A DNA stretch of 64,000 nt from Hymenobacter sp. YIM 151500-1 (GTDB lineage: Bacteria > Bacteroidota > Bacteroidia > Cytophagales > Hymenobacteraceae): positions 4,236,001 to 4,300,000 of the forward strand of contig NZ_CP110139.1 in assembly GCF_025979885.1 (NCBI RefSeq). Direction: 5' to 3'. Under the pieces are notes generated by a model. It was not told the DNA's origin. It saw only the letters and a program-made list of their open reading frames with translations, and did not search any database. The position numbers were made by a program, and so were the translations under genes. Shown here in pieces: positions 2,624 to 47,772 of this stretch (position 1 is the first letter of the stretch; every line of letters starts with the position of its first letter).

Positions 2624-2758
2624 GCGGTGCTGCCGGGCTGCATAGCACATAAGCTAGCGGCAACAGTTTTTAGCGAAGAAAAACGCACCGCTGGGCTTTT
2701 TTTCGTGTCCTGTATGCAGAAGGCGGCTTATCTTCCGCTACCGCTCCCATCCGCTGCT

Positions 2759-3406
2759 ATGAATACGACCTTGGCTGCCCGCTGGCACCGTCTTACCACG
2801 CCCCTGCTGCCCGATGAAGGATTGCGCAAAGCAGCCCTTCAGCAACTATCGGCGGCGTACGAGGCCTCCGACCGGCACTACCATTCCCTGCGGCACATCC
2901 GGGCCCTGCTCGAAACCCTGGACCGCCACGCCGCCCAGCTCCAAGATGCGCCGGTGGTGCAGCTGGCCGTGTGGTTTCACGATGCCGTGTACAACCCCTT
3001 GCGCGACGACAACGAAGCCCGCAGTGCCGCCCTGGCCCTGGAGTTTTTGCAGCGCACCACCCTGCCCGCCGACCGGCAGCAGCGCGTAGCCTTCCTGATT
3101 GAGCGCACCAAGGACCACACCCAGCCCCAACCCCCCGACGATACCGACCTGCACCTGCTCCTCGACGCTGACCTGCAAATCCTGGGTGCCGCCGAAGCCG
3201 ACTACTGGCAGTACGCCCGCCAGGTGCGCCAGGAGTACCGCCTCGTGCCCGATTTCATGTACCGCCGTGGCCGCCGCAAAGTCCTGGAAAAGCTGCTCGG
3301 CGCCCCAGCCTTGTATCATACCGAAGCTTTCCGCAACAAGCTCGATGCACAGGCCCGCCGCAATTTGCAGGCCGAGCTGAAGGCGTGGCAGAATGGGGGA
3401 TTGTAG
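2759..3406 (+). CDS. HD-domain metal-dependent phosphohydrolase-like protein
   Basis: A 215-residue cytosolic protein. YHSLRH (41-46), VWFHDAVYN with His74-Asp75, and LLLDADLQILG with the distal Asp follow the H...HD...D order of HD-superfamily phosphohydrolases. The pattern matches the predicted HD proteins sometimes mislabelled as NMDA-receptor-like. The reading frame is open from 2627, but the ATG at 2759 is chosen because homology begins there and a TATCTTCC box lies just upstream at 2729-2736. The substrate is unknown. The stop codon abuts a large palindromic element starting at 3407. Confidence 0.78.
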   Translation: MNTTLAARWHRLTTPLLPDEGLRKAALQQLSAAYEASDRHYHSLRHIRALLETLDRHAAQLQDAPVVQLAVWFHDAVYNPLRDDNEARSAALALEFLQRTTLPADRQQRVAFLIERTKDHTQPQPPDDTDLHLLLDADLQILGAAEADYWQYARQVRQEYRLVPDFMYRRGRRKVLEKLLGAPALYHTEAFRNKLDAQARRNLQAELKAWQNGGL

Positions 3407-3802
3407 GGGCCTCACCCCCCGGCCCCCTCTCCCGCGGAGAGGGGGAGCCTGACGCCAAGTCGTTCTGCGCCGCCCTGTCGGCTCCCGCCTCCAGAACGGC
3501 TTACCATTGAGGACGGCAACGAACAGCAGCCGCATAGCGGGCTACAGGTTTGTAGTGTGAAAGATTGGGTAAAGAGTTCAGCGCCGCGTAGCGGTGCCAG
3601 AGACGCTTGACCGTTTCTGGCACCGCTACGCGGCGCTGAACTTATCTGCATTAACCTGGCTACAACCCCTCAACCGCTACGCGGCCACTGTGCTACTACA
3701 GGCAGGTAGCCGTTCTGGAGGCGGTAGCCGACAGGGCGGCGCAGAACGACCTGGCGTCTGGCTCCCCCTCTCCGCGGGAGAGGGGGCCGGGGGGTGAGGC
3801 CC
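3407..3802. repeat. Composite palindromic element, family P1, copy A
   Basis: About 396 bp with near-perfect terminal inverted repeats: left arm 3407-3505, right arm 3705-3802 (starting GGGCCTCACCCCCCGGCC). Nested inside is a perfect 27-bp hairpin (3575-3601 / 3616-3642) with loop sequence GACGCTTGACC, and further short GCTACGCGG / CCGCATAGC pairing flanks it. It begins directly after the stop of the HD gene. A second copy lies at 37013-37400. The arms translate to a spurious SPSPRERGPGGEA peptide, so predicted small ORFs here are not genes. Confidence 0.9.
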
Positions 3803-3876: not shown

Positions 3877-6297
3877 ATGCTACACCGATACGTGCTGCCG
3901 CTGGTGGCGCTGAGCCTGCTGGCCGCAGCTGCCCACGCCCAGCAGCTGGCCCCGCTTACTGTTGAGAAAATCATGCGCGACCCGGCGCAGTGGCTGGGAA
4001 CTTCGCCTTCCAACATCTACTGGGCCGAAGATGGCAAGACCATTTTCTTCACCTGGAACCCCGAAAAAGCCCGCCGCGACTCGCTGTACCGTCTTTCGCC
4101 CGCGGGTGGCACGCCGCGCAAGGTAAGCCTGGCCGAGCAGCACAGCCTGCCTGCGCCCGGCGGCGAGTACGACCGGCGCTTCACCCGGCGCGTGTTTGAA
4201 AAGGAAGGCGACATCTACCTCCAGGACCTGAAAACCCAGCGCGTGCGGCGCGTCACGAACACGGCCGAGCGGGAAGCCGAGCCGCAGTTTGCCCTGCTGG
4301 GCCAGGTGGTGAGCTACACCCGCGCCGGCAACCTGTTCACCTGGGACCCCGCCACCGGCGAAACCGTGCAGCGCACTGATTTCCGCAAGGGCCCCAAGCC
4401 TGGCCCGGCCGTGCTCAGCCCCGCCGACAAGTTTCTGAAGGTCCAGCAGCTGGCTTTGTTTGAGGTGCTGCGCGGCAAGGAGCAGGACGCCCAGGCCCGG
4501 CAGCGGGTGCAGAAAGCCCTGGCCCGCCTGCGCCCCAAGGCCATCTACCTGGGCACCCAAACCGTGCGCAACCTGCGCCTCGCCCCCGACGGCCGCTACG
4601 TCACCTACACGCTGGCCCAGGAGCCCTCGGCCGAAAAAGTGGCCCTGGTACCCAACTTCGTCACGGCCTCGGGCTTCACCGAAGACCTAACCACCCGACC
4701 CAAAGTAGGCGCCCCCCAAACGGCTTTCCAGCTGGGCATCTACGACATCGGCCGCGACACCACGTTTCTGGTGGGCTACGCGGAGCTGAAAGGTCTCGAC
4801 GAGCAGCCCGCCTACCGCAAAGAGTACCAGCTGAAGCCCCAGGCCCCCACGCCCGCTGATACGGCCAAAGCCAAGGCCGCGGCGCGCAAGCCAGCCGCCG
4901 AAACGCGGCGGGTGGTGCTGTTCGGGCCGTTCTGGTCGGATGATGGGCAGCGGGCTTTCCTCGTCATTCGCAGCGCCGACAACAAGGACCGGTGGCTGGT
5001 GAGCCTGGACCCGGCCACCCAGAAAATCAAGCTCCTGGACCGCCAGCACGACGACGCCTGGATTAACGGCCCTGGCATCGGGTACGACGAAGGCAACGTG
5101 GGCTGGCTGCCCGACTCGCGCCGCATCTGGTTTCAGAGCGAGGAAACCGGCTTCAGCCACCTCTACACCGTGGACGTGACGACCGGCCAGAAAAAGGCCC
5201 TGACCAGCGGCCGGTGGGAGGTGCAGAAGGCTCGCCTCAGCCGCAACGGCCGCACCTGGTACCTCACGGCCAACAAGGTGCACCCCGGCGAGCAGCACTT
5301 TTACCGCATGCCCGCAGACGGCGGCCCGCTCACCCAACTCACCACCCAGCCCGGCGCCCACGACGTTACGCTTTCCCCCGACGAAAAAACCCTGGCCGTG
5401 CGCTACAGCACGCCCACCCAGCCCTGGGAGCTGTACCTGATGGACAACAAGCCCGGTGCCCGCATGCGCCGGATCACCCACAGCACTACGCCCGAGTTTG
5501 AGAGCTACGCCTGGCGCACCCCCGAGGTCATCAGCTTCAAGGCCCAGGACGGGGCCGAGGTGTACGCCCGCCTGTACCGCCCGGCCTCGCCCCAGGCCCA
5601 GGGCCCGGCCGTCATCTTCGTGCACGGGGCGGGCTACTTACAGAACGCGCACAAGTGGTGGAGCCAGTACTTCCGCGAGTATATGTTCCATAACCTGCTG
5701 GCCGACAAAGGCTACACCGTGCTCGACATCGACTACCGCGGCTCCAGCGGCTACGGCCGCGACGTGCGCACCGGCATCTACCGCCACATGGGCGGCAAAG
5801 ACCTCTCCGACCACGTGGACGGCGCCCGGCTGCTGGTGGAGAAGTACGGCGTCAGCCCCCGGCGCATCGGCATCTACGGCGGCTCCTACGGCGGCTTCAT
5901 TACGCTCATGGCCATGTTCACCCAGCCCGACGTGTTCCGGGCCGGGGCCGCCCTGCGCTCCGTCACCGACTGGGCCCACTACAACCACCCGTACACCGCC
6001 AACATCCTCAACGAGCCCTCCGCCGACTCCCTGGCCTACGCCCGGTCCTCGCCCATCAACTTTGCCGAGGGCCTCAAGGGCGCCCTGCTCATGTGCCACG
6101 GCATGGTCGATACCAACGTGCACTTCCAGGATATCGTGCGCCTGTCGCAGCGCCTCATCGAGCTGAAAAAGGAGAATTGGGAGCTGGCCGTGTACCCGGT
6201 CGAGGACCACGCCTTCGTGGAGCCTACTTCTTGGACGGATGAGTACAAGCGTATTCTGAAGCTGTTTGAAATCAACCTAAACGGAGAGAGCAGATGA
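3877..6297 (+). CDS. Secreted S9 family (DPP IV/prolyl oligopeptidase-like) serine peptidase
   Basis: An 806-residue protein. Residues 1-21 are a signal peptide, about 40-540 a beta-propeller, and about 560-806 the alpha/beta-hydrolase peptidase domain. The nucleophile is Ser670 in GGSYGG; Asp745 (HGMVDTNVHF) and His778 (VEDHAFVEP) complete the triad. The enzyme should release N-terminal dipeptides or cleave proline peptides in the periplasm. The ATG at 3877 is preferred over an in-frame TTG at 3868 because it starts a clean signal peptide. A TAACCTTTG stretch ends 6 bp upstream. A strong hairpin (6298-6397) directly follows the stop. Confidence 0.93.
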   Translation: MLHRYVLPLVALSLLAAAAHAQQLAPLTVEKIMRDPAQWLGTSPSNIYWAEDGKTIFFTWNPEKARRDSLYRLSPAGGTPRKVSLAEQHSLPAPGGEYDRRFTRRVFEKEGDIYLQDLKTQRVRRVTNTAEREAEPQFALLGQVVSYTRAGNLFTWDPATGETVQRTDFRKGPKPGPAVLSPADKFLKVQQLALFEVLRGKEQDAQARQRVQKALARLRPKAIYLGTQTVRNLRLAPDGRYVTYTLAQEPSAEKVALVPNFVTASGFTEDLTTRPKVGAPQTAFQLGIYDIGRDTTFLVGYAELKGLDEQPAYRKEYQLKPQAPTPADTAKAKAAARKPAAETRRVVLFGPFWSDDGQRAFLVIRSADNKDRWLVSLDPATQKIKLLDRQHDDAWINGPGIGYDEGNVGWLPDSRRIWFQSEETGFSHLYTVDVTTGQKKALTSGRWEVQKARLSRNGRTWYLTANKVHPGEQHFYRMPADGGPLTQLTTQPGAHDVTLSPDEKTLAVRYSTPTQPWELYLMDNKPGARMRRITHSTTPEFESYAWRTPEVISFKAQDGAEVYARLYRPASPQAQGPAVIFVHGAGYLQNAHKWWSQYFREYMFHNLLADKGYTVLDIDYRGSSGYGRDVRTGIYRHMGGKDLSDHVDGARLLVEKYGVSPRRIGIYGGSYGGFITLMAMFTQPDVFRAGAALRSVTDWAHYNHPYTANILNEPSADSLAYARSSPINFAEGLKGALLMCHGMVDTNVHFQDIVRLSQRLIELKKENWELAVYPVEDHAFVEPTSWTDEYKRILKLFEINLNGESR

Positions 6298-6397
6298 TTT
6301 CTCGTAGTGTGGCGCAGTGGTGGCGCAGGGTTTCGCAGTGTGCTGACGCCTGAACACTGCGGAACCCTGCGCCACCACTGCGCCACACTGCGAGAAA
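6298..6397. repeat. Long hairpin element P5 after the S9 peptidase gene
   Basis: 44-bp arms (6298-6341 / 6354-6397), nearly perfect, with a 12-nt loop that begins right after the peptidase stop codon. The loop region carries GACGCCTGAAC (6345-6355), which also occurs in the central hairpin of the P1 element at 37203-37213. The right terminus CTGCGCCACACTGCGAGAAA matches the right terminus of the P4 element (43519-43538) at 19 of 20 positions. Confidence 0.9.
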
Positions 6398-6514
6398 TCC
6401 TTTAAAAGCGGAATCAGTCGGTGTTTTTGGCCGGCTGGTCGATTGGAGAGGGAAGGCTAGGAGCGGGAAGAGCATCTTTGACTACTCTTTCAGCCACACT
6501 TTTAGCCTCTTCTC

Positions 6515-19260: not shown

Positions 19261-19268
19261 CAAAGATA
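19261..19268 (-). promoter_or_regulatory. rpsU promoter -7 box
   Basis: CAAAGATA on the plus strand is TATCTTTG on the minus strand, an exact TAnnTTTG. It overlaps the first base of the adjacent palindromic element, so the upstream -33 region lies inside the palindrome arm. Confidence 0.55.
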
Positions 19269-19381
19269 ATCACAGATTGTGCAGATTAAAAAATTTGATT
19301 TCACAGATTACTGACGAGCCGCCCGAAGTGCACCCCCAAAATCTGTGAAATCAAATTTTTTAATCTGCACAATCTGTGATT
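19268..19381. repeat. Perfect 42-bp-arm palindrome P6
   Basis: Arms 19268-19309 and 19340-19381 are exact inverted copies (beginning AATCACAGATTGTGCAGATT), separated by 30 nt of unrelated GC-rich sequence. It fills the gap between the 3' end of the acyl-CoA dehydrogenase gene and the rpsU promoter. Its AT-rich composition contrasts with the flanks, and I recall similar CACAGATT repeats scattered in Bacteroidota. Confidence 0.92.
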
Positions 19382-25023: not shown

Positions 25024-25281
25024 GTGGGGACTTAGGGTCTTGGGGGCTTAAGGTTTTAAATTTGTGCTGTCATCTTCTGAGCACGTTGCCTATCAGGCGA
25101 GATAAATCCCCTTCTCACGGCGGAGCGGCTGGCGCTAGAATAACTTGGCTGCGCCAACGAGCAGACGACATTAGCTACACTGACTTTTGACTTGGCCATT
25201 GCCGGACACCAGATGAAGGATGACGGCTGTTAATTAGAACAGAAACTAAGCCCCTAAGTCCCCAAGACCCTAAGTCCCTAT
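25023..25281. repeat. Palindromic element P2, long copy
   Basis: Terminal inverted repeats GGGACTTAGGGTCTTGGGGG (from 25027) and CCCCAAGACCCTAAGTCCC (to about 25279) flank about 180 bp. That interior has GTCATCTTCTGAGC and GGACACCAGATGAAG, resembling parts of the P3 repeats. The right arm contains AGAACAGAAACTAAGCCCCT, shared with the short copy at 28023-28121. It starts at the stop codon of the phosphatase gene and ends 4 nt before the next ATG. Confidence 0.85.
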
Positions 25282-25284
25282 AAA

Positions 25285-26283
25285 ATGATTTTTGTTACTG
25301 GTGGCAGCGGCTTGGTGGGTAGCTTTTTGATTCCGGAACTGCGGCGGCGGGGGCTGCCGGTGCGGGCCTTGTACCGGCAGCGTGTGCCGCTGGTAGCCGG
25401 GGCCGATGGGGTAGAATGGGTGGAGGGCGACATCCGGGATGGGCTGGGGCTGCGGGCGGCGCTGGAGGGCGTAACTCACGTGTTTCACTGCGCGGGCCTA
25501 GTGTCATACGCCCCCCAGGATGAGGAGGCCCTGCTGCAAATCAATGTGGAAGGGGCCGCCAACGTGGTAGATGCCTGCCTGGAGCGGCCCGGCATCCGGC
25601 TGGGCTTTGTGTCGTCGGTGGCGGCGCTGGGCGGGGTGGCTGGTACTAGTGAGCAGCTTGTGGGGCCGGTGTTTCTCGATGAAAATGCCAAGTGGGACCT
25701 GGGCGCCGAGCACAACGCCTACGCCACGTCGAAGTACCTGGGGGAGCTGGAAGTGTGGCGCGGCGTGTCGGAAGGGCTGCGGGCGGTTATTGTGAATCCC
25801 TCCGTGATTCTGGGGCCGGCCGACTGGAACCGCAGCAGCACCCGCCTTTTCCGCTATGCCCACCAGGAACACTGGTTCTACACGCCCGGCAGCATCAACG
25901 TGGTGGACGTGCGCGACGTGGTGGACATGCTGCTGCGCCTCACGCTTGACACTACAATAAGCGGGGAGCGGTATGTACTAAGTGCCGCCGCCGTGCCCCT
26001 GCACGAATTTCTGGCTCAGGCAGCAGCCAGTTTTGGCAAGCAAGGCCCGTCGGTGGCCGTGCCCACCTGGGCCGCCGAAACCATCTGGCGCCTAGAGCAC
26101 CTGCGCTCCTGGCTGACTGGAGCCCGCCCGCTCATCACCAAAGACACCGCCCGCGCCGGCCGCCACCCCGTCATCTACCAAACCGACAAAGTGCGCCGTG
26201 CCCTGGGCATGGAGTTTCGGCCCGTAGCAGAAACCATTCGCTGGTGCTGTGAGGGGTTACAGGAAAAGGTGAGAAGTGAATGA
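25285..26283 (+). CDS. NAD(P)-dependent SDR epimerase/dehydratase-like protein
   Basis: A 332-residue extended SDR. The N-terminal MIFVTGGSGLVGSFLIPEL is the TGxxGxxG nucleotide-binding motif. YATSKYLGELEV contains the catalytic YxxxK, preceded by FVSSVAALGG with the Ser. The C-terminal half resembles dihydroflavonol-4-reductase-like and NAD-dependent epimerases of Bacteroidota. The substrate is unknown. The start is fixed by the P2 element that ends just upstream. Confidence 0.88.
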   Translation: MIFVTGGSGLVGSFLIPELRRRGLPVRALYRQRVPLVAGADGVEWVEGDIRDGLGLRAALEGVTHVFHCAGLVSYAPQDEEALLQINVEGAANVVDACLERPGIRLGFVSSVAALGGVAGTSEQLVGPVFLDENAKWDLGAEHNAYATSKYLGELEVWRGVSEGLRAVIVNPSVILGPADWNRSSTRLFRYAHQEHWFYTPGSINVVDVRDVVDMLLRLTLDTTISGERYVLSAAAVPLHEFLAQAAASFGKQGPSVAVPTWAAETIWRLEHLRSWLTGARPLITKDTARAGRHPVIYQTDKVRRALGMEFRPVAETIRWCCEGLQEKVRSE

Positions 26284-26460
26284 GGTGGGGAGGTAAATGG
26301 TGACAAGTGACACGTAACAGGTAGCACGTCGGTCATGCTGAGCTTGCCGAAGCATCTCTACCACTGGCTAATCTCAATCGTGAGAACGGAGCGGGAGAGA
26401 TGCTGGGCTACGCCTTCCTTCGGTTCGACTGCGCCTCCGGTTGCGCGGACGCCAGATGAA
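26281..26460 (+). repeat. Dispersed repeat P3, copy 1
   Basis: GTGACAAGTGACACGTAACA, then GGTCATGCTGAGC, GAAGCATCTC (26349-26358), GGCTAAT, CAATCGTG and GCGGACGCCAGATG. The same blocks occur in the same order, inverted, at about 33180-33450. GGCTACGCCTTCCTTCGG (26406-26423) is also shared with the P4 repeat. The derived peptide MLSLPKHL is a familiar spurious ORF product. Confidence 0.8.
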
Positions 26461-26623
26461 GCAGAACGTTCAACGTGGCACCTTTTCACTCCTTTTAGAA
26501 CCGAACCCATGCGCCTCCGGTGCGGTTGTTGTATATTCAGGGCGGACGCTTTTTTCGGAGAGTAAACCGCCGTCCGCCCTGCGGAGGCTGCCATGTTGGC
26601 GGCTTCTGGCCGATAGTAGTAGC
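26461..26623. promoter_or_regulatory. Upstream region of the TPR gene with short hairpin
   Basis: Not coding as far as I can see. AGGGCGGACG (26539-26548) pairs with CGTCCGCCCT (26571-26580), leaving a T-rich loop. TATATTC just before the left arm could belong to a promoter, but no full TTTG/TAnnTTTG pair is present. Confidence 0.3.
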
Positions 26624-28027
26624 ATGAGAATGAACGAGAATTTTGAGGACCGGGACGAAGTGTTGGATACCGTGCGACGATTCGAGCGCATGGTGGCCCA
26701 CAATGAGCCTGTATTTTTTGACCTGGCCGATTTCGAGAATATCATCGACCACTACACCACCACTACGCAGTACGAAAAAGCCCTGCAAGCATGTGAGGCG
26801 GCCATTGCGCAGTATCCGTTCAGCACGGAGCTGCTGATTGACCGCTCTCAGGTGCTGGCTATGAAAGGGGAGTACGCGGCGGCCAGCAGCCAGATTGAAG
26901 ACGTGGCCCACCTCGACCCCGATAACCCCGACGTGGCCGTGACGCGCGGCATTATTGCCACCCAGAAAGGCGAGTTTGCCGAGGCCGTGGCCTTTTTCCA
27001 CCAGGCCGCTGAGCGGGCCCAGGACCGCGACGACATCTTTTTTAACCTGGGCCTGGCCTACCAGAGCTGGCAGAAGTTTAAGAGCGCCGCCAAGTATTAT
27101 AAGCAGAGCCTGCGCCTGAACCCCGACAACGACGTGGCTGTGCAGGAACTGCTGTACTGCCTGGAAGTGAGCGAGCGGCTGGAGAAAAACCTGGAGTTCT
27201 TCCGGCGCTTCACCGATGAAGACCCCTATTCGGCAGTGGCCTGGTACAACCTGGGCCAGGCCTACTACCGCGCCGCCCGCTACGACGACGCCATCAGCGC
27301 CTTCGACTACGCCATCCTCATTGACGCAAAATTCTACGAGGCGCACGGCTTTCTGGCCAGCACCTACGTGAGCCTGGAGCAGTACCGGCGGGCCATTGAG
27401 GAGTTTCAGCTGAGCTACCCTGAAGGGGAGCCCACGCCCGAGGCCATGTGCAACATCGGGGAGTGCTACGAGAAGCTGGCCGAGTGGGACCAGGCCCGCC
27501 GCCACTACCAGCAGGCCATGGACCTGGACCCGAAAATGGACGAGGCCTGGTTTGGCATGGGCATCGTGATGAACGCCCAGGAGCGGTACTTCGAGGCCAT
27601 CCACTTCTTCCGCAAGGCCGTGAGCCTCTACGACGAAAGCATCGAGTACTGGCTGGCCCTGGCCGCGGCCGAGTACCAGCTGGGCAACGTGGTGTCGGCC
27701 GTTGAGGCCTACGACCGGGCCACTCAGGTAGCGCCCGACAACAAGGACGCCTGGCTGAACTGGAGCATCATCCTCTACGAGCAGGGCAACTTCGACGGAG
27801 CCATTGACCTGATGCGCAACGCCGTGGAGATTCAGCCCCTGGAAGCCGAGCTGCACTACCGCCTGTGTGCCTACCTGCTGGCCGCCGGCCGCTACCGCGA
27901 AGCTTACCAGTGCCTGGAAAACGCCCTGACCCTGGACTTCGACAAGCACCGCCTGCTATTCGAGTACTTTCCGGAGCTGGAGTCGCAAAAAGCCCTGGCC
28001 CGCCTGATTGAGCAGTATAGGAAATAG
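26624..28027 (+). CDS. Tetratricopeptide repeat protein
   Basis: A 467-residue soluble protein of about ten TPR units (for example AWYNLGQAYYRAARYDDAISAF, AWFGMGIVMNAQERYFEAIHFF, AWLNWSIILYEQGNFDGAI). It has no signal peptide and is acidic, so it is presumably a cytosolic scaffold. The start is at MRMNENFEDRDEVLDT (26624 or 26630); the frame upstream is repeat DNA. A palindromic element begins at its stop codon. The neighbourhood with phosphosulfolactate synthase matches an arrangement I recall in Cytophagales, but the role is unknown. Confidence 0.88.
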   Translation: MRMNENFEDRDEVLDTVRRFERMVAHNEPVFFDLADFENIIDHYTTTTQYEKALQACEAAIAQYPFSTELLIDRSQVLAMKGEYAAASSQIEDVAHLDPDNPDVAVTRGIIATQKGEFAEAVAFFHQAAERAQDRDDIFFNLGLAYQSWQKFKSAAKYYKQSLRLNPDNDVAVQELLYCLEVSERLEKNLEFFRRFTDEDPYSAVAWYNLGQAYYRAARYDDAISAFDYAILIDAKFYEAHGFLASTYVSLEQYRRAIEEFQLSYPEGEPTPEAMCNIGECYEKLAEWDQARRHYQQAMDLDPKMDEAWFGMGIVMNAQERYFEAIHFFRKAVSLYDESIEYWLALAAAEYQLGNVVSAVEAYDRATQVAPDNKDAWLNWSIILYEQGNFDGAIDLMRNAVEIQPLEAELHYRLCAYLLAAGRYREAYQCLENALTLDFDKHRLLFEYFPELESQKALARLIEQYRK

Positions 28028-28121
28028 GTTGTTAGGGACTTGGGGGCTTAGGGGCTTAGTTTCTGTTCTACAATACAATCGTTGAGCAGAAACTAAGCCC
28101 CCAAGTCCCTAACAACCTATT
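28023..28121. repeat. Palindromic element P2, short copy
   Basis: A near-perfect inverted repeat (AATAGGTTGTTAGGGACTTG ... CAAGTCCCTAACAACCTATT) includes the TAG stop of the TPR gene in its left arm. The inner part has TTAGTTTCTGTTCT as in the long P2 copy at 25023-25281. The left arm has an extra 8-nt GGGGCTTA duplication. Confidence 0.9.
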
Positions 28122-36274: not shown

Positions 36275-37012
36275 ATGCCCGACTACGGACTTATTGGCCG
36301 CTCCCTGCGCCATTCCTTTTCCCAGACGTATTTCACGCAGAAATTTCACAACCTCGACCTCGCTGACCATCGGTACGAGCTGTTTGAGCTAAGCTCAGTG
36401 GAAGAGCTGCCCGCGCTGGTGCAGCGGGAGCCGAACCTGCGGGGCCTCAACGTCACCATTCCGTACAAGGAAAAAGTCTGGCCTTTTCTGGATGGCGTAG
36501 CGCCGTCGGCCGCGCGGGTGGGGGCCGTCAACGTAATTGAGTTTCGGGAGGATGGCCGCCTTATCGGGCACAATACCGACATGGTGGGCTTCCGGGATTC
36601 GCTGCGCAGCTTTTTGCCGGTGGGCTTCCAGGGCCGGGCCCTGGTGCTGGGCAGCGGCGGGGCTTCCAAAGCCGTAGAAGTAGCTCTGCGCGACCTGAAC
36701 CTGGGCTACTGGGTGGTGTCGCGCAACCCGCTGGGGCCGGGCTTCACCTACGACGAGCTGACGCCCCGTCTGCTCCAGGAGCATCCGCTCATCATCAACA
36801 CCACGCCCCTGGGCACCTTCCCCGACGTGCACGAGTGCCCCCCGCTGCCCTACGAGGCCCTCACCACCCAGCATTACCTCTACGACCTCATCTACAACCC
36901 CCGCGAAACCGAATTCATGCGGCGCGGTGCCACCGCCGGCGCCCAAACCAAAAACGGGTTTGAAATGCTCTGCCTCCAGGCCGAAGCCGCCTGGAAGATT
37001 TGGCAAGGGTAG
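36275..37012 (+). CDS. aroE: Shikimate dehydrogenase
   Basis: A 245-residue NADP(H)-dependent enzyme reducing 3-dehydroshikimate to shikimate. YGLIGRSLRHSFSQTYF, NVTIPYKEKV (catalytic Lys), GHNTDMVGF (catalytic Asp) and ALVLGSGGASKAV (Rossmann loop) are all present. The length is slightly below 270, as in Bacteroidota. GCGGGCA / TGCCCGC pairing directly upstream (36251-36269) forms a small hairpin 5 nt before the ATG. The stop codon is inside the terminal repeat of the P1 palindrome. Confidence 0.96.
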   Translation: MPDYGLIGRSLRHSFSQTYFTQKFHNLDLADHRYELFELSSVEELPALVQREPNLRGLNVTIPYKEKVWPFLDGVAPSAARVGAVNVIEFREDGRLIGHNTDMVGFRDSLRSFLPVGFQGRALVLGSGGASKAVEVALRDLNLGYWVVSRNPLGPGFTYDELTPRLLQEHPLIINTTPLGTFPDVHECPPLPYEALTTQHYLYDLIYNPRETEFMRRGATAGAQTKNGFEMLCLQAEAAWKIWQG

Positions 37013-37400
37013 TGGCCTCACCCCCCGGCCCCCTCTCCCGTGGAGAGGGGGAGCCTGACGCTCCGCCCAGCGCCGCCCCGTCGGCTACCGCCTCCGGAAC
37101 GACTACCGCTGTGAACGACAACGGACATCACGGCCGCCTAGCGGCCCAGAGGGTTGTAGATGGATGGGAGGGAACAGCATAGCACAGCGTAGCGGGGCAA
37201 GAGACGCCTGAACGTTTCTTGCCCCGCTATGCGGCGCTACTTCTTTATAACGTGTGGTTTCTACAATCCTTCGGCCGCTATGCGGCCACTGTGTTACCAC
37301 GAGCAGGTAGCCGTTCCGGAGGCGAGAGCCGACGGGGCGGCGCTGGGCGGAGCGTCAGGCTCCCCCTCTCCACGGGAGAGGGGGCCGGGGGGTGAGGCCA
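37013..37400. repeat. Composite palindromic element, family P1, copy B
   Basis: Same plan as 3407-3802: terminal inverted repeats beginning TGGCCTCACCCCCCGGCC, and a central hairpin around 37180-37240 with loop GACGCCTGAAC (37203-37213). It fills the whole space between the convergent aroE and TonB-receptor genes. The palindrome even runs into both stop codons (TAG at 37010-37012 and its mirror at 37401-37403). Confidence 0.9.
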
Positions 37401-39992
37401 CTACTGCTGGCCCTGGCCGCCGCCTTCGCCCTGCTTGGCGTCGTCGTTCTGGATGCCGCGGCGGCGCTTCTGAGGCTGCTGCGACACCTTGCCGAAGCGG
37501 TAGTTGAAGGCCAGGCGCACCCCGCGCAGGTAGATATAGTTGTTGCTTTCCTGGCGAAACTGCTCGGTGTCGAGGATGCTGTTCAGGTTGCGGGTGGCTT
37601 GCAGGAAGTTGTCGGCGTTCAGGGTCAGGTCGCCTTTTTCCTTGAGGATGTTTTTGCGCAGGCCCATGGAGTAGAACGCCCAGGCCCGCTGCCGCCCTTG
37701 CAGCTGGATGCGCGGCGAGTTCAGGCCCCCGAAGAATTGCAGGCTCAGTCCTTTCTCGAACTTGTAGCTGGAGTTCAGGTTCAGGTTGTACATCACCCCG
37801 CTGTTGGAGTAGCCCGCCATGCTGCCCACGCCTTCGCCAAAGTTCAGGGACGGGCTTTTCAGCGACACGAAATAGGCGTTTACGTTGCCGCTCAGGTCCC
37901 ACTTGGGCAGCGGCTTCACCGACCCAAACACGCTCAGGCCGTACGTGGCGTTGCGCCCGATGTTGCGAAACGTCTGGTTGTTGACCCCGTTGCTGACGAA
38001 GCGCACGGCCTCAATAGCATTGCCGGTGCGCCGGGCATAGGCCGAGAAGTTCAGCACCGAGCCTTTGATGAACGTGGTGTAGTTCAACTCGTAAGAATCG
38101 GTCAGCTCGGGTTTCAGTCCTGGCTCGCCGTAGCTGACGTTGAGGCTGTCGGCGGCGTTGCGGAAGGGGTTGAGGAAGAAAATCTGGGGGCGCTGGATGC
38201 GGCGCGAGTAGGCCAGGCGCAGGGTCTGGCCGGGTTTTTTGGGGTTGCCGGGCTGGTAGCTCACGCTCAGGTTAGGCAGCAGGTTGGTGTAGTTCTGCTC
38301 CACGCCGGAGTTCTGGCTTTCCTGCTGCTGAAACGAGCCGTCGATGCGGGTGTTTTCCAGGCGGGCACCCAGCTTGAAGCTCACCTTCTTGGAGGCCGAA
38401 AACCCGTAGGTGCCGTAGGCTGACAGCACATCCTGGCGGTAGTCGAACAGGTTGGACCGCAACGGGTTAAACACCGGGTCGATATTGCTGCTACGGGCGG
38501 GGCTGGTGAATACGTCGAAGTCGCTGCTCACGCGGCGCAAGATGGCCTTGGCGCCGGTTTCCAGCAGGGCGGTTTCCGAAAACGGGTGGGCGTAGTCGGT
38601 TTGCAGGGTGGTTTCGAGGTTGCGGGCCAGGTTGTCGCTTTCTTCCCGGTAGGTTTTGTCCTCGTTGCGCTCCGAGCGGCCCCGAAACTGGTCGAGGTTG
38701 TAGGCCTGCACGTTGCGGTTGCGGGTGTGCTGGGCCAGCACGCTCCACTCGCGGCGCTTCTCCTCGAAGGTGCGGGTATAGGAGCCGTTCAGGTCGTAGC
38801 TCTGGGTGTGGAAGCCGCGGCGCGTGTCGCGGCTAAACTCATTGGCTACCACATTGCCCACTGGCAGCACGTTGTTGTATTGGTCGTAAGTGCCGGCGTT
38901 GCGGAACAGGCTGCCCTGCACGTTCAGCGTGAGGTTGTGGTACTGGGCCGGGTCGTAGTCGAGGCCCAGGCGCCCGAAGCCCCCGCCACCCAGCGTAAAC
39001 CCGTCGCCTTCCTGCTGCAAAGACAGCTGCTCGGTGCCATTGGGGCTTTTCAGGTAGCGGGTCAGGTCGTTGCGGTTGGGGCTGTAAAACGTCCAGCCGT
39101 TAGCCGAGCTGCTCAGGCCCACCTTGCCTTTGCGGTAGTTCAGCGAGGCGTTGGCGTTGGAGCTGCGCGTGCCGGCCGCCGCACCCACCGAGCCATTGAG
39201 GCCGCCCAGGTCGTTCTTTTTCAGAATAATATTGATAATGCCGCCCGTGCCTTCGGCGTCGTACTTGGCCGAGGGCGTCGTCACCACCTCCACGCTCTTA
39301 ATCTGGTCGGCCGGAATCTGCTTCATGGCATCGGCCACCGACGAGGCTACCACGCCCGAGGGCTTGCCGTTGATGAGCACCCGCACGTTGGAGGTGCCGC
39401 GCAGCTCCACGTTGCCGTCGGGGTCCACGTTTACCAGCGGCACCTTGCGCAGCACGTCGGCGGCCGTGCCGCCCGTGTTGGTCAAGTCCCGGTCGGCGTT
39501 GTAGATGATGCGGTCCGGCTTGGTTTCCACCACTTCCCGCTCCCCGGTCACCTTCACCTCGCCCAGCTTCTGGGCCGTGGAAGCCAGCTGCACGGTGGGC
39601 ACGGTGGTCAGGCCCTGGCCCACGGTTACGTTCAGCGTCTGGGTGGCATAGCCGATAAAGCTGATTTGCAGGCGGTAGTCGCCGGCGGCCAGGCCCTTCA
39701 GCGCGAAGCGGCCCCGCTCGTCGCACACGCCGCCGTCCAGCGGCGTGTTGCCGGCCAGGGGCAGCAGGGCCACCGTGGCAAACTCCACCGGCTTTTTGGT
39801 GGCAGCGTCGAGCACGGTGCCCTCCAGGCGGCCAGCGCCCTGGGGCGCCTGGGGCAGCACGGGCCGGGTCGCGGCAGGGGCGCCAGCGGGCCGGGCACCC
39901 GCCGGCGCAGCGCCGGCGGGCGGGGTGGTTTGCGCCAGGGCCGGGGCGGCGAGCAGGCCGGCCAACAGCAGGAGCAACGTAGATTTTTTCAT
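37401..39992 (-). CDS. TonB-dependent receptor-like outer-membrane protein
   Basis: An 863-residue protein with signal peptide MKKSTLLLLLAGLLAAPALA. After an Ala/Pro-rich stretch, about residues 55-135 form a CarboxypepD-regulatory-like domain (GTVLDAATKKPVEFATVALLP). A plug-like region follows (TAADVLRKVPLVNVDPDGNVELRGTSNVRVLINGKPSG), then a large barrel of the OMP_b-brl_3 type. The ligand is unknown. It is the last gene downstream of two DUF4097 genes and an ECF/anti-sigma pair on the same strand, with a 199-bp gap, so it may belong to that regulon. Confidence 0.92.
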   Translation of the reverse strand: MKKSTLLLLLAGLLAAPALAQTTPPAGAAPAGARPAGAPAATRPVLPQAPQGAGRLEGTVLDAATKKPVEFATVALLPLAGNTPLDGGVCDERGRFALKGLAAGDYRLQISFIGYATQTLNVTVGQGLTTVPTVQLASTAQKLGEVKVTGEREVVETKPDRIIYNADRDLTNTGGTAADVLRKVPLVNVDPDGNVELRGTSNVRVLINGKPSGVVASSVADAMKQIPADQIKSVEVVTTPSAKYDAEGTGGIINIILKKNDLGGLNGSVGAAAGTRSSNANASLNYRKGKVGLSSSANGWTFYSPNRNDLTRYLKSPNGTEQLSLQQEGDGFTLGGGGFGRLGLDYDPAQYHNLTLNVQGSLFRNAGTYDQYNNVLPVGNVVANEFSRDTRRGFHTQSYDLNGSYTRTFEEKRREWSVLAQHTRNRNVQAYNLDQFRGRSERNEDKTYREESDNLARNLETTLQTDYAHPFSETALLETGAKAILRRVSSDFDVFTSPARSSNIDPVFNPLRSNLFDYRQDVLSAYGTYGFSASKKVSFKLGARLENTRIDGSFQQQESQNSGVEQNYTNLLPNLSVSYQPGNPKKPGQTLRLAYSRRIQRPQIFFLNPFRNAADSLNVSYGEPGLKPELTDSYELNYTTFIKGSVLNFSAYARRTGNAIEAVRFVSNGVNNQTFRNIGRNATYGLSVFGSVKPLPKWDLSGNVNAYFVSLKSPSLNFGEGVGSMAGYSNSGVMYNLNLNSSYKFEKGLSLQFFGGLNSPRIQLQGRQRAWAFYSMGLRKNILKEKGDLTLNADNFLQATRNLNSILDTEQFRQESNNYIYLRGVRLAFNYRFGKVSQQPQKRRRGIQNDDAKQGEGGGQGQQ

Positions 39993-40191
39993 GTAACAAT
40001 AAGAAAAGAGAAACTCCCGGAAAAAGCTGGCTTCCACAACGGGGCGCCCAAGCTGCCCACCACGGTAACGAAGTCGGCTACTGACAGCAAATGTCCGCTA
40101 CCGTTGCGCTGCCCGGCGTTTTATTCAACAAATCCGATACACAGGCCCTTCAACGCCCCGCTGCTCCCCGTGTACCGGGGCGGCGGAGCGC

Positions 40192-47625: not shown

Positions 47626-47772
47626 AGAAGTGAGTACCGAGAAGTGAGAGGTGAGACTCTCGTTCTATCGTAGAGGGTAGATACTAGAAGTGAGAGGTGA
47701 GACTTTCGCTCTGAGAGCCCGGCTGGGTTGCAGAACAAGAGTCTCACCTCTCACTTCTCGGTACTCACTTCT
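47626..47772. repeat. Palindromic element P7
   Basis: 41-bp arms (47626-47666 / 47732-47772) with one mismatch, beginning AGAAGTGAGTACCGAGAAGT. The central part repeats AGAAGTGAGAGGTGAGACT directly at 47686-47704. It fills the gap between the convergent LytTR and wrbA genes. Confidence 0.9.

Follow-up and report, generated by a model that had tools for sequence, protein, structure and literature searches.

Near-400-bp composite palindromes of Hymenobacter as probable non-autonomous derivatives of DUF559 nuclease elements

Palindromic repeats are present in dozens to thousands of copies in many bacterial genomes. We know of no enzyme for the super-family of C-rich palindromic repeats. The sections of PMC3733652 drawn on here present RAYT-REP systems as established, record REPs beside both 3' ends, less than 20 bp away, in other bacteria, and describe the CGTC repeats as apparently without a dedicated transposase. 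According to the same sections (Di Nocera 2013), REP/BIME repeats with a RAYT or TIRYT (GTAG and CGTC super-families) are short inverted palindromic pairs near convergent 3' ends, sometimes intragenic, and in this they resemble the two palindromes described below. In the open-licence literature we found no paper on inverted repeats or palindromes in Hymenobacter and no report of a link between DUF559 and repeats.

The window is a 64,000-nucleotide stretch of Hymenobacter sp. YIM 151500-1 (C1:4236001-4300000 of a 4.8 Mb contig; a dnaA match begins at position 481). A sequence-only reading of it had singled out two composite palindromes of near 400 bp, here P1 and P2, as non-autonomous mobile elements or structured RNA or terminator elements. 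Both are real and far beyond chance in inverted-repeat and folding tests. The arms of P1 (3407-3501 and 3708-3802; 95 nt) and of P2 (37009-37107 and 37306-37404; 99 nt) are 97% complementary. Folded as DNA, P1 reaches -203.8 kcal/mol against a mean of -84.9 in 100 shuffles (z -26.5), and P2 folded as RNA reaches -352.4 kcal/mol (z -28.8), with 0/100 shuffles as good in either case. There is indeed a nested hairpin at the centre (3575-3642 in P1), and both palindromes do adjoin stop codons: P1 begins directly after the TAG of ORF 2627-3406, and P2 is bounded by the TAG of ORF 36275-37012 and the opposite-strand TAG of ORF 37401-40037. P2 had been placed at 37013-37400, which gives its position correctly but not its limits, since it extends from 37009 to 37404. 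The stem strings quoted as differing between the two contain real differences (a T-A pair becomes G-C and a C-G pair becomes A-T, read by eye), but they are overlapping pieces of one stem and not two stems. The parts of both palindromes, in window coordinates, are:

3407..3802, no strand: P1, whole composite palindrome; arms 97% complementary, one of 24 aligned full-length copies
3408..3449, + strand: P1 left tip, REP-like and forming a hairpin by itself; DUF559 elements have it as their terminal inverted repeat (TIR), with the same sequence at DUF559 loci
3760..3801, - strand: P1 right tip, the left one inverted; its sequence is also found at DUF559 loci
3459..3505, + strand: P1 second layer, left; resembles in alignment the inner TIR part of the genome's own DUF559 element C1:804977-805606
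3705..3750, - strand: P1 second layer, right; located by sequence
3529..3685, no strand: P1 core, MITE-like remnant of an IS200/IS605-type Y1 element; homologous core in 13/61 genomes, same repeats flank Y1 genes
3529-3555 and 3660-3685, no strand: P1 core outer hairpins, part of the Y1-element remnant
3575..3642, no strand: P1 central hairpin; in loci L267 and L269 a transposase gene lies in its loop
37009..37404, no strand: P2, whole composite palindrome, occupying all the space between two convergent genes, whose stops are flush with its ends
37014..37055, + strand: P2 left tip; located by sequence
37358..37399, - strand: P2 right tip; located by sequence
37061..37107, + strand: P2 second layer, left; located by sequence
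37306..37352, - strand: P2 second layer, right; located by sequence
37133..37286, no strand: P2 core, same Y1-element remnant as in P1; core shared by aligned copies and relatives
37187..37232, no strand: P2 central hairpin; located by sequence

The two palindromes are far from being the only copies. A search of the genome with P1 returned 105 matches (both strands counted), and 24 full-length copies (tip to tip 342-430 bp, 71-84% identity to P1) could be aligned; there are shorter relatives as well. The tip, CTCACCCCCCGGCCCCCTCTCC, occurs 151 times with up to two mismatches (0 for the reversed-pattern control), and its CTAG variant has 71 exact occurrences. A loose 16-base pattern picks out 78 convergent tip pairs in the fetched stretches, along with 38 tips that have no partner. 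Across 84,980 species genomes, an exact match to the 39-base tip turned up in 51 stretches, each of them titled Hymenobacter. An assembly artefact, which the sequence-only reading had also considered, is unlikely because the copies differ from one another and their relatives carry the same modules.

Each full-length copy is built of modules mirrored about one axis: a hairpin tip, a second layer and a core, the last consisting of a central hairpin between outer hairpins (GCCGCGTAGCGG...GGTTTGTAG). These modules combine freely among copies. Inside CCGG tips lies either the long core or one that resembles a terminator and has a variable stem; inside CTAG tips it is mostly CTAG-rich filler. Three different outer palindromes have the same core at their axis, and those of L030 and L032 bear no relation to the tip. 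The arms are haplotypes mixed among copies and not perfect self-copies. Left and right arms share 0.788 identity within an element versus 0.751 between elements (permutation p 0.0002; 23 of the 24 elements, one having been dropped for an unreadable right tip), and on these values the strong form of the idea that arms are strictly self-corrected is rejected. A 21-bp hairpin replaces a few tip-stem bases in one arm of L013, L021, L023 and L024 and in both arms of L034, L035 and L036, which suggests arm-to-arm conversion or arm exchange. The outer flanks of two elements 2 kb apart in L055 (C1:120642-123245) mirror each other, as they might after rearrangement of a segment bounded by repeats. Target duplication of TA or CTAG was considered from the flanks and had no fixed boundary. 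Long flank symmetry, which might point to insertion into the centre of pre-existing terminators, is seen in a few CTAG copies (C1:631861, 4653558, 3774580, 1705045 and 3506973) and is not general among the copies.

P1 and P2 themselves encode no protein, as had been stated, but relatives with the same ends do, and the protein is DUF559. Tips 613-650 bp apart enclose a DUF559 frame at C1:804977-805606, 120642-121259 and 3771217-3771867, and tip pairs likewise enclose one in H. gummosus, H. frigidus and H. jeollabukensis. The family (PF04480) has matches in 51/61 Hymenobacter genomes, with five in the genome studied; these lie away from P1 and P2, which carry the ends of a DUF559 element without its gene. 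A tip in flanking orientation stands within 500 bp of DUF559 at 26 of 30 loci of the genus, and on both sides at 22, the 30 being the best-scoring loci with full flanks plus three own loci first found through the tip. Where loci were picked by the protein alone, a tip is near 23 of 27. Flanking tips within 500 bp were found at 0/27 Y1 loci and 0/28 aroE-region loci used as controls; one loose match lies near the Y1 locus L270 in the other orientation and one farther off in L262. At DUF559 loci the tip is mostly contained in TIRs of 40-60 bp. Among the tipless loci, L305, L311 and L319 have TIRs like the sequence inside CTAG elements, and L303 has a decayed tip.

Over its whole length the P1 arm aligns collinearly, with 82 of 102 columns identical, to one TIR of a DUF559 element in the same genome, and the inner layer of P1 compared with that single element scores 20.5, against a maximum of 17 in 1000 shuffles (0/1000). 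With the elements of H. gummosus, H. jeollabukensis and genome G003, P1 aligns well mainly over the tip. Judged by sequence, we take the outer arms of P1 and P2 to be the terminal inverted repeats of a DUF559 element. Tip and DUF559 counts per genome show a rank correlation of 0.40 (p 0.05, 24 genomes), and among scored candidates there are tip-rich genomes without a DUF559 match (60 tips in G024, 47 in G010).

A match to PF04480 has an E-value of 1e-34, and the DUF559 protein of L055 matches PDB 3hrl at 1e-23. For a structure model built from five sequences (mean pLDDT 67), 3hrl scored Z 12.9, I-Bth0305I (a homing endonuclease) 9.5 and Vsr of E. coli 9.4, with the next other row at 7.0; 3hrl and 3r3p were found by both Foldseek and VIA-align, and 1cw0 and 1vsr by VIA-align. 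Residues E113, D115 and H119 (numbering of L225) are among those invariant in the five-sequence alignment. The acidic residues that are conserved in DUF559 lie in a VExDG motif. DUF559 is thus predicted to have a Vsr-like catalytic fold and to be a PD-(D/E)XK endonuclease. PMC12907096 reports for Caulobacter that VsrA, a DUF559 protein, accounts for the SOS response seen in cells without a solitary methylase. DUF559 as a defence protein was considered and set aside, with one weak PADLOC match for one of two proteins and only weak matches in PHROGs.

Proximity of DUF559 to C-rich hairpins extends beyond the sequence of the P1 tip and beyond the genus. A general hairpin motif (CCYTCYCC-loop-GGRGARGG, one mismatch allowed) was sought within 400 bp of DUF559, at the 30 best-scoring matches of each search rather than at a random sample. 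The motif is found at 24/27 loci in Hymenobacter, with a density of 2.18/kb near DUF559 vs 0/kb far from it. PF04480 has matches in 109/198 Bacteroidota genomes, and outside Hymenobacter the motif lies near 17/23 Bacteroidota loci, on both sides in 11 (2.12/kb near vs 0.13/kb far). A strict TIR score was passed by 8/24 Bacteroidota loci, one of the eight being from Hymenobacter. In other phyla, represented by 16 loci of Pseudomonadota, Cyanobacteriota and Deinococcota taken from plasmid-collection records (40 records hit), TIRs exceed the shuffle maximum plus 2 at 9/16 loci, and the motif occurs 20 times in 12.8 kb near DUF559 vs 10 times in 27.2 kb far from it. The repeats of these loci differ in sequence and are C-rich hairpins.

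One such case is E. coli K-12 (L395), where the DUF559 gene ycjD has two C-rich hairpins at its 3' end or next to it, both on the fabI side. Of 5426 E. coli genomes, 3365 contain ycjD and 5372 the sapF stretch next to it. The 41-base repeat beside ycjD, which we take to be box C, occurs in E. coli genomes at a median of 13 positions each. The fabI-ycjD gap was also considered as a strain-level empty site; the three E. coli strains fetched with short matches have other genes beside fabI, one further strain has a truncated ycjD, and we claim no empty site there.

The core has a different source. It is present in 13/61 Hymenobacter genomes, mostly as about 150 bp with the same layout. A Y1 gene encoding about 150 residues stands between core repeats in L267, L268, L269 and L275. 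It occupies the central hairpin's loop in L267 and L269 and has a whole core on each side in L275; the short locus L272 has a core repeat on one side. These are five of the 29 Y1 loci of the genus, and the remaining ones have other flanks. The L267 protein exceeds the cut-off of the NCBIfam IS200/IS605 transposase model NF033573 and fails that of the REP-associated model NF047646 (44 bits vs 80). The centre of P1 and P2 is, on this evidence, the end repeat of an IS200/IS605-type Y1 transposon, nested at the axis of the outer palindrome. The genome itself has three Y1 genes, which are surrounded by other inverted repeats; no tip was found near them within the loci fetched, nor did we find there the neighbour pattern of the core's transposase type. 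One of the three (L051, G000:C1:382252-382563) lies between the arms of a 125-bp TIR that contains the CCGCGTAGCGG motif and the GGCCGCGTAGCGGCC hairpin.

The presence of a Y1-element end in the core, Y1 genes in 43/61 Hymenobacter genomes and the standing of RAYT-REP systems (the sections of PMC3733652 cited above) would all suit a rival account, in which P1 and P2 are ordinary REP/BIME-type repeats moved by Y1 tyrosine transposases (RAYT or TIRYT) and DUF559 is a passenger. We regard it as unlikely, given that flanking tips lie within 500 bp at 26/30 DUF559 loci vs 0/27 Y1 loci and that DUF559 is again linked to repeats, of other sequence, in further Bacteroidota and in other phyla, which is hardly expected of a passenger. 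A RAYT as mover of the outer arms was likewise held unlikely because Y1 genes lack tips in flanking orientation.

Some of the repeats reside within genes. Twelve of the genome's 78 tip pairs sit within an open frame that continues as coding sequence to either side, and they translate to peptides like SPPSPLS-REGEL...SPSLLERGLGGEA. Ten of the twelve hosts were scanned, one of them without a match. Hosts above the NCBIfam cut-off include MenD, polynucleotide kinase-phosphatase, IspG, penicillin-binding protein 1C and MetH, and those below it include PurL and AddA-like and AddB-like proteins. Among ten DUF559 proteins of other Bacteroidota, picked for their long open frames, DUF559 is inside leucyl-tRNA synthetase in two, methionine synthase in two and restriction-modification proteins in six. 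In the restriction-modification proteins DUF559 could simply be a nuclease domain of the ordinary sort; for the two cases within leucyl-tRNA synthetase (L322, L325), no TIR exceeds the shuffle maximum.

The AddA-like site provides a comparison at an orthologous position. Among the 26 readable loci of 30 (four were unreadable), two hold a DUF559 element (L369 of the genome studied, and G003), two a tip pair without DUF559, two a single or decayed tip, and 20 none of these; there is no clear target duplication at the junctions. As far as the sequences tell, P1-like copies would arise from a DUF559 element through a series of the same kind.

In gene context, as given by a simple codon-based gene caller, the two tip classes differ. 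CCGG pairs lie between convergent genes in 24 of 35 cases, 17 of the 24 having both stops within 4 bp, and the stops at flush ends are TAG 38, TGA 4 and TAA 3 times, vs 125, 54 and 150 in the background. Any flush stop is seen at 6/43 CTAG pairs, and none of their four convergent pairs is flush on both sides. The classes also differ along the chromosome: 0/35 CCGG pairs fall in the quarter farthest from dnaA (p 2.8e-5, a post hoc value since the limit of 1.77 Mb was chosen after the positions had been viewed), compared with 10/43 CTAG pairs, and long CCGG pairs lean to one chromosome half (18/22), which CTAG pairs do not. At the aroE 3' gap, the site of P2, other Hymenobacter genomes (L112-L140) have unrelated palindromes, some of them nearly flush with both stops; in some genomes the gap has a short hairpin only, or none.

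The placement of the CCGG class at gene ends, together with the small CCGG members, whose terminator-like core has an upper stem that varies yet is still paired (read by eye), would fit selected RNA devices, namely bidirectional terminators or 3'-end stabilisers of convergent genes. The sequence-only reading had noted what looks like compensatory change in the stems. Two-sided changes do occur at several positions of 43 central hairpins (of 45 sources; 874/989 cells Watson-Crick), but mismatches of G-U type and A-C type are equal (34 each in the 989 cells), so there is no one-strand RNA signature, and the covariation that would speak for an RNA is weak. At Rfam gathering thresholds P1 and P2 have no match, and the window yields one tRNA only. 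The in-frame tip pairs, the few CTAG pairs with a flush stop and the use of unrelated sequences in the orthologous aroE gap also speak against RNA devices as the general explanation, to which we give little credence; a terminator role at gene ends is plausible.

Strong inverted repeats are common in the gaps of this genome irrespective of the tip. In an unbiased survey of the window and twenty 20-kb stretches (gaps of 20-700 bp, inverted-repeat score of at least 20), they were found in 26/53 convergent, 33/156 tandem and 3/37 divergent gaps, with none in shuffles. Another Hymenobacter had 5/22, 13/72 and 2/24, respectively; there were 0/79 in a genome of another family and 0/19 in a 50-kb E. 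coli stretch. The window itself holds palindromes of unrelated sequence at 6296-6399, 19268-19381, 47626-47772 and 25235-28070. That DNA mechanisms acting in the gene gaps (template switching, documented in PMC8794818 as a source of hairpins, and quasipalindrome correction) mainly build the palindromes and maintain their symmetry, with terminators as seeds and no transposing unit, would agree with these many unrelated palindromes, with those in the aroE gap and with the equal mismatch types, but is very unlikely when copies at unrelated places are 71-84% identical to P1, their arms are mixed haplotypes, and the AddA-like site shows discrete in-frame presence or absence that includes a gene-bearing form.

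Non-autonomous mobile elements, the first of the original proposals, are by comparison well supported by dispersed copies, modules in common with coding elements and presence or absence at an orthologous site. The DUF559 link, the nesting and the AddA-like presence/absence series taken together therefore lead us to read P1 and P2 as non-autonomous derivatives of DUF559 elements. We consider it probable that they are composite derivatives of a DUF559-encoding element with the remnant of a second element inside, DUF559 being the presumed mover and repair the presumed route of copying.

The complete element consists of a repeat, one DUF559 nuclease gene and a second repeat, about 0.5-0.75 kb in all. 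The outer arms of P1 and P2 are two REP-like units facing each other without the nuclease gene between them, and at their axis lies instead the MITE-like remnant left by a Y1 (HUH) transposon unrelated to it; when complete, that transposon holds its own transposase gene between the same repeats. Most likely, DUF559 would cut or nick at or near the hairpin-forming repeats or target sites, and repair might then copy the repeat-bounded segment into the break, by analogy with homing endonucleases; copies without the nuclease would have been moved in trans. Copies occur where insertion is tolerated, flush with stops between convergent genes (CCGG) or in frame (many CTAG copies and the DUF559 elements), and the CCGG hairpins could double as two-way transcript ends.

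A broader proposal, which we hold about evenly balanced between acceptance and doubt, is that DUF559 may be the dedicated mobilising enzyme of widespread C-rich palindromic repeats of the CCCTCTCC-loop-GGAGAGGG type: a homing-like counterpart of RAYT-REP, occurring in four phyla including E. coli K-12 and lodging in frame in core genes (methionine synthase, recombination helicases), of which P1 and P2 would be gutted and re-invaded copies. It offers a one-gene candidate, present in several phyla and in E. coli, for the enzyme that spreads repeats without a linked tyrosine transposase. The candidate is linked to repeats in several phyla and is available in E. coli, and the question is therefore directly testable. 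DUF559, a domain of unknown function, gains a concrete hypothesis, and giant palindromes can evidently arise when one element nests at the symmetry axis of another.

The composites can finally be set beside the described systems. P1-type stems are of the CCCCCTCTCC type (by eye) and differ from the stem of 8-9 bp with A-T pairs first that marks CGTC REP families 1-4; a CGTC-like tag is present in many P1-type arms. Outer units flanking a Y1 gene, as in the GTAG REPs of RAYT systems, were seen at 0/27 Y1 loci. The P1 core fits the arrangement of TIR plus Y1 transposase given for TIRYTs in the sections of PMC3733652 used here; unlike in REP/BIME systems, the outer units of P1 and P2 are C-rich hairpins linked to DUF559 and not to a tyrosine transposase, and the whole forms concentric composites of about 390 bp. 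In the consulted parts of PMC10969869 and PMC3733652, Rickettsia palindromic elements are likewise palindromic and read in frame within genes; their sequences are different, and these parts of the accounts mention no encoded enzyme. With MITEs, P1 and P2 share long terminal inverted repeats, the absence of a gene, many dispersed copies and kinship to coding elements, but they are nested at symmetry axes, and their flanks give no fixed boundary for a target duplication. The predicted fold of DUF559 is like that of the homing endonuclease I-Bth0305I and of E. coli Vsr, and DUF559 elements reside in frame in conserved genes as Vsr-like homing endonucleases do; unlike these, they are known here from sequence, are bounded by palindromic repeats, and no intron or intein was seen with them. 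In E. coli, ycjD is likewise a DUF559 gene next to hairpins of this kind, but both of them stand to one side of the gene.
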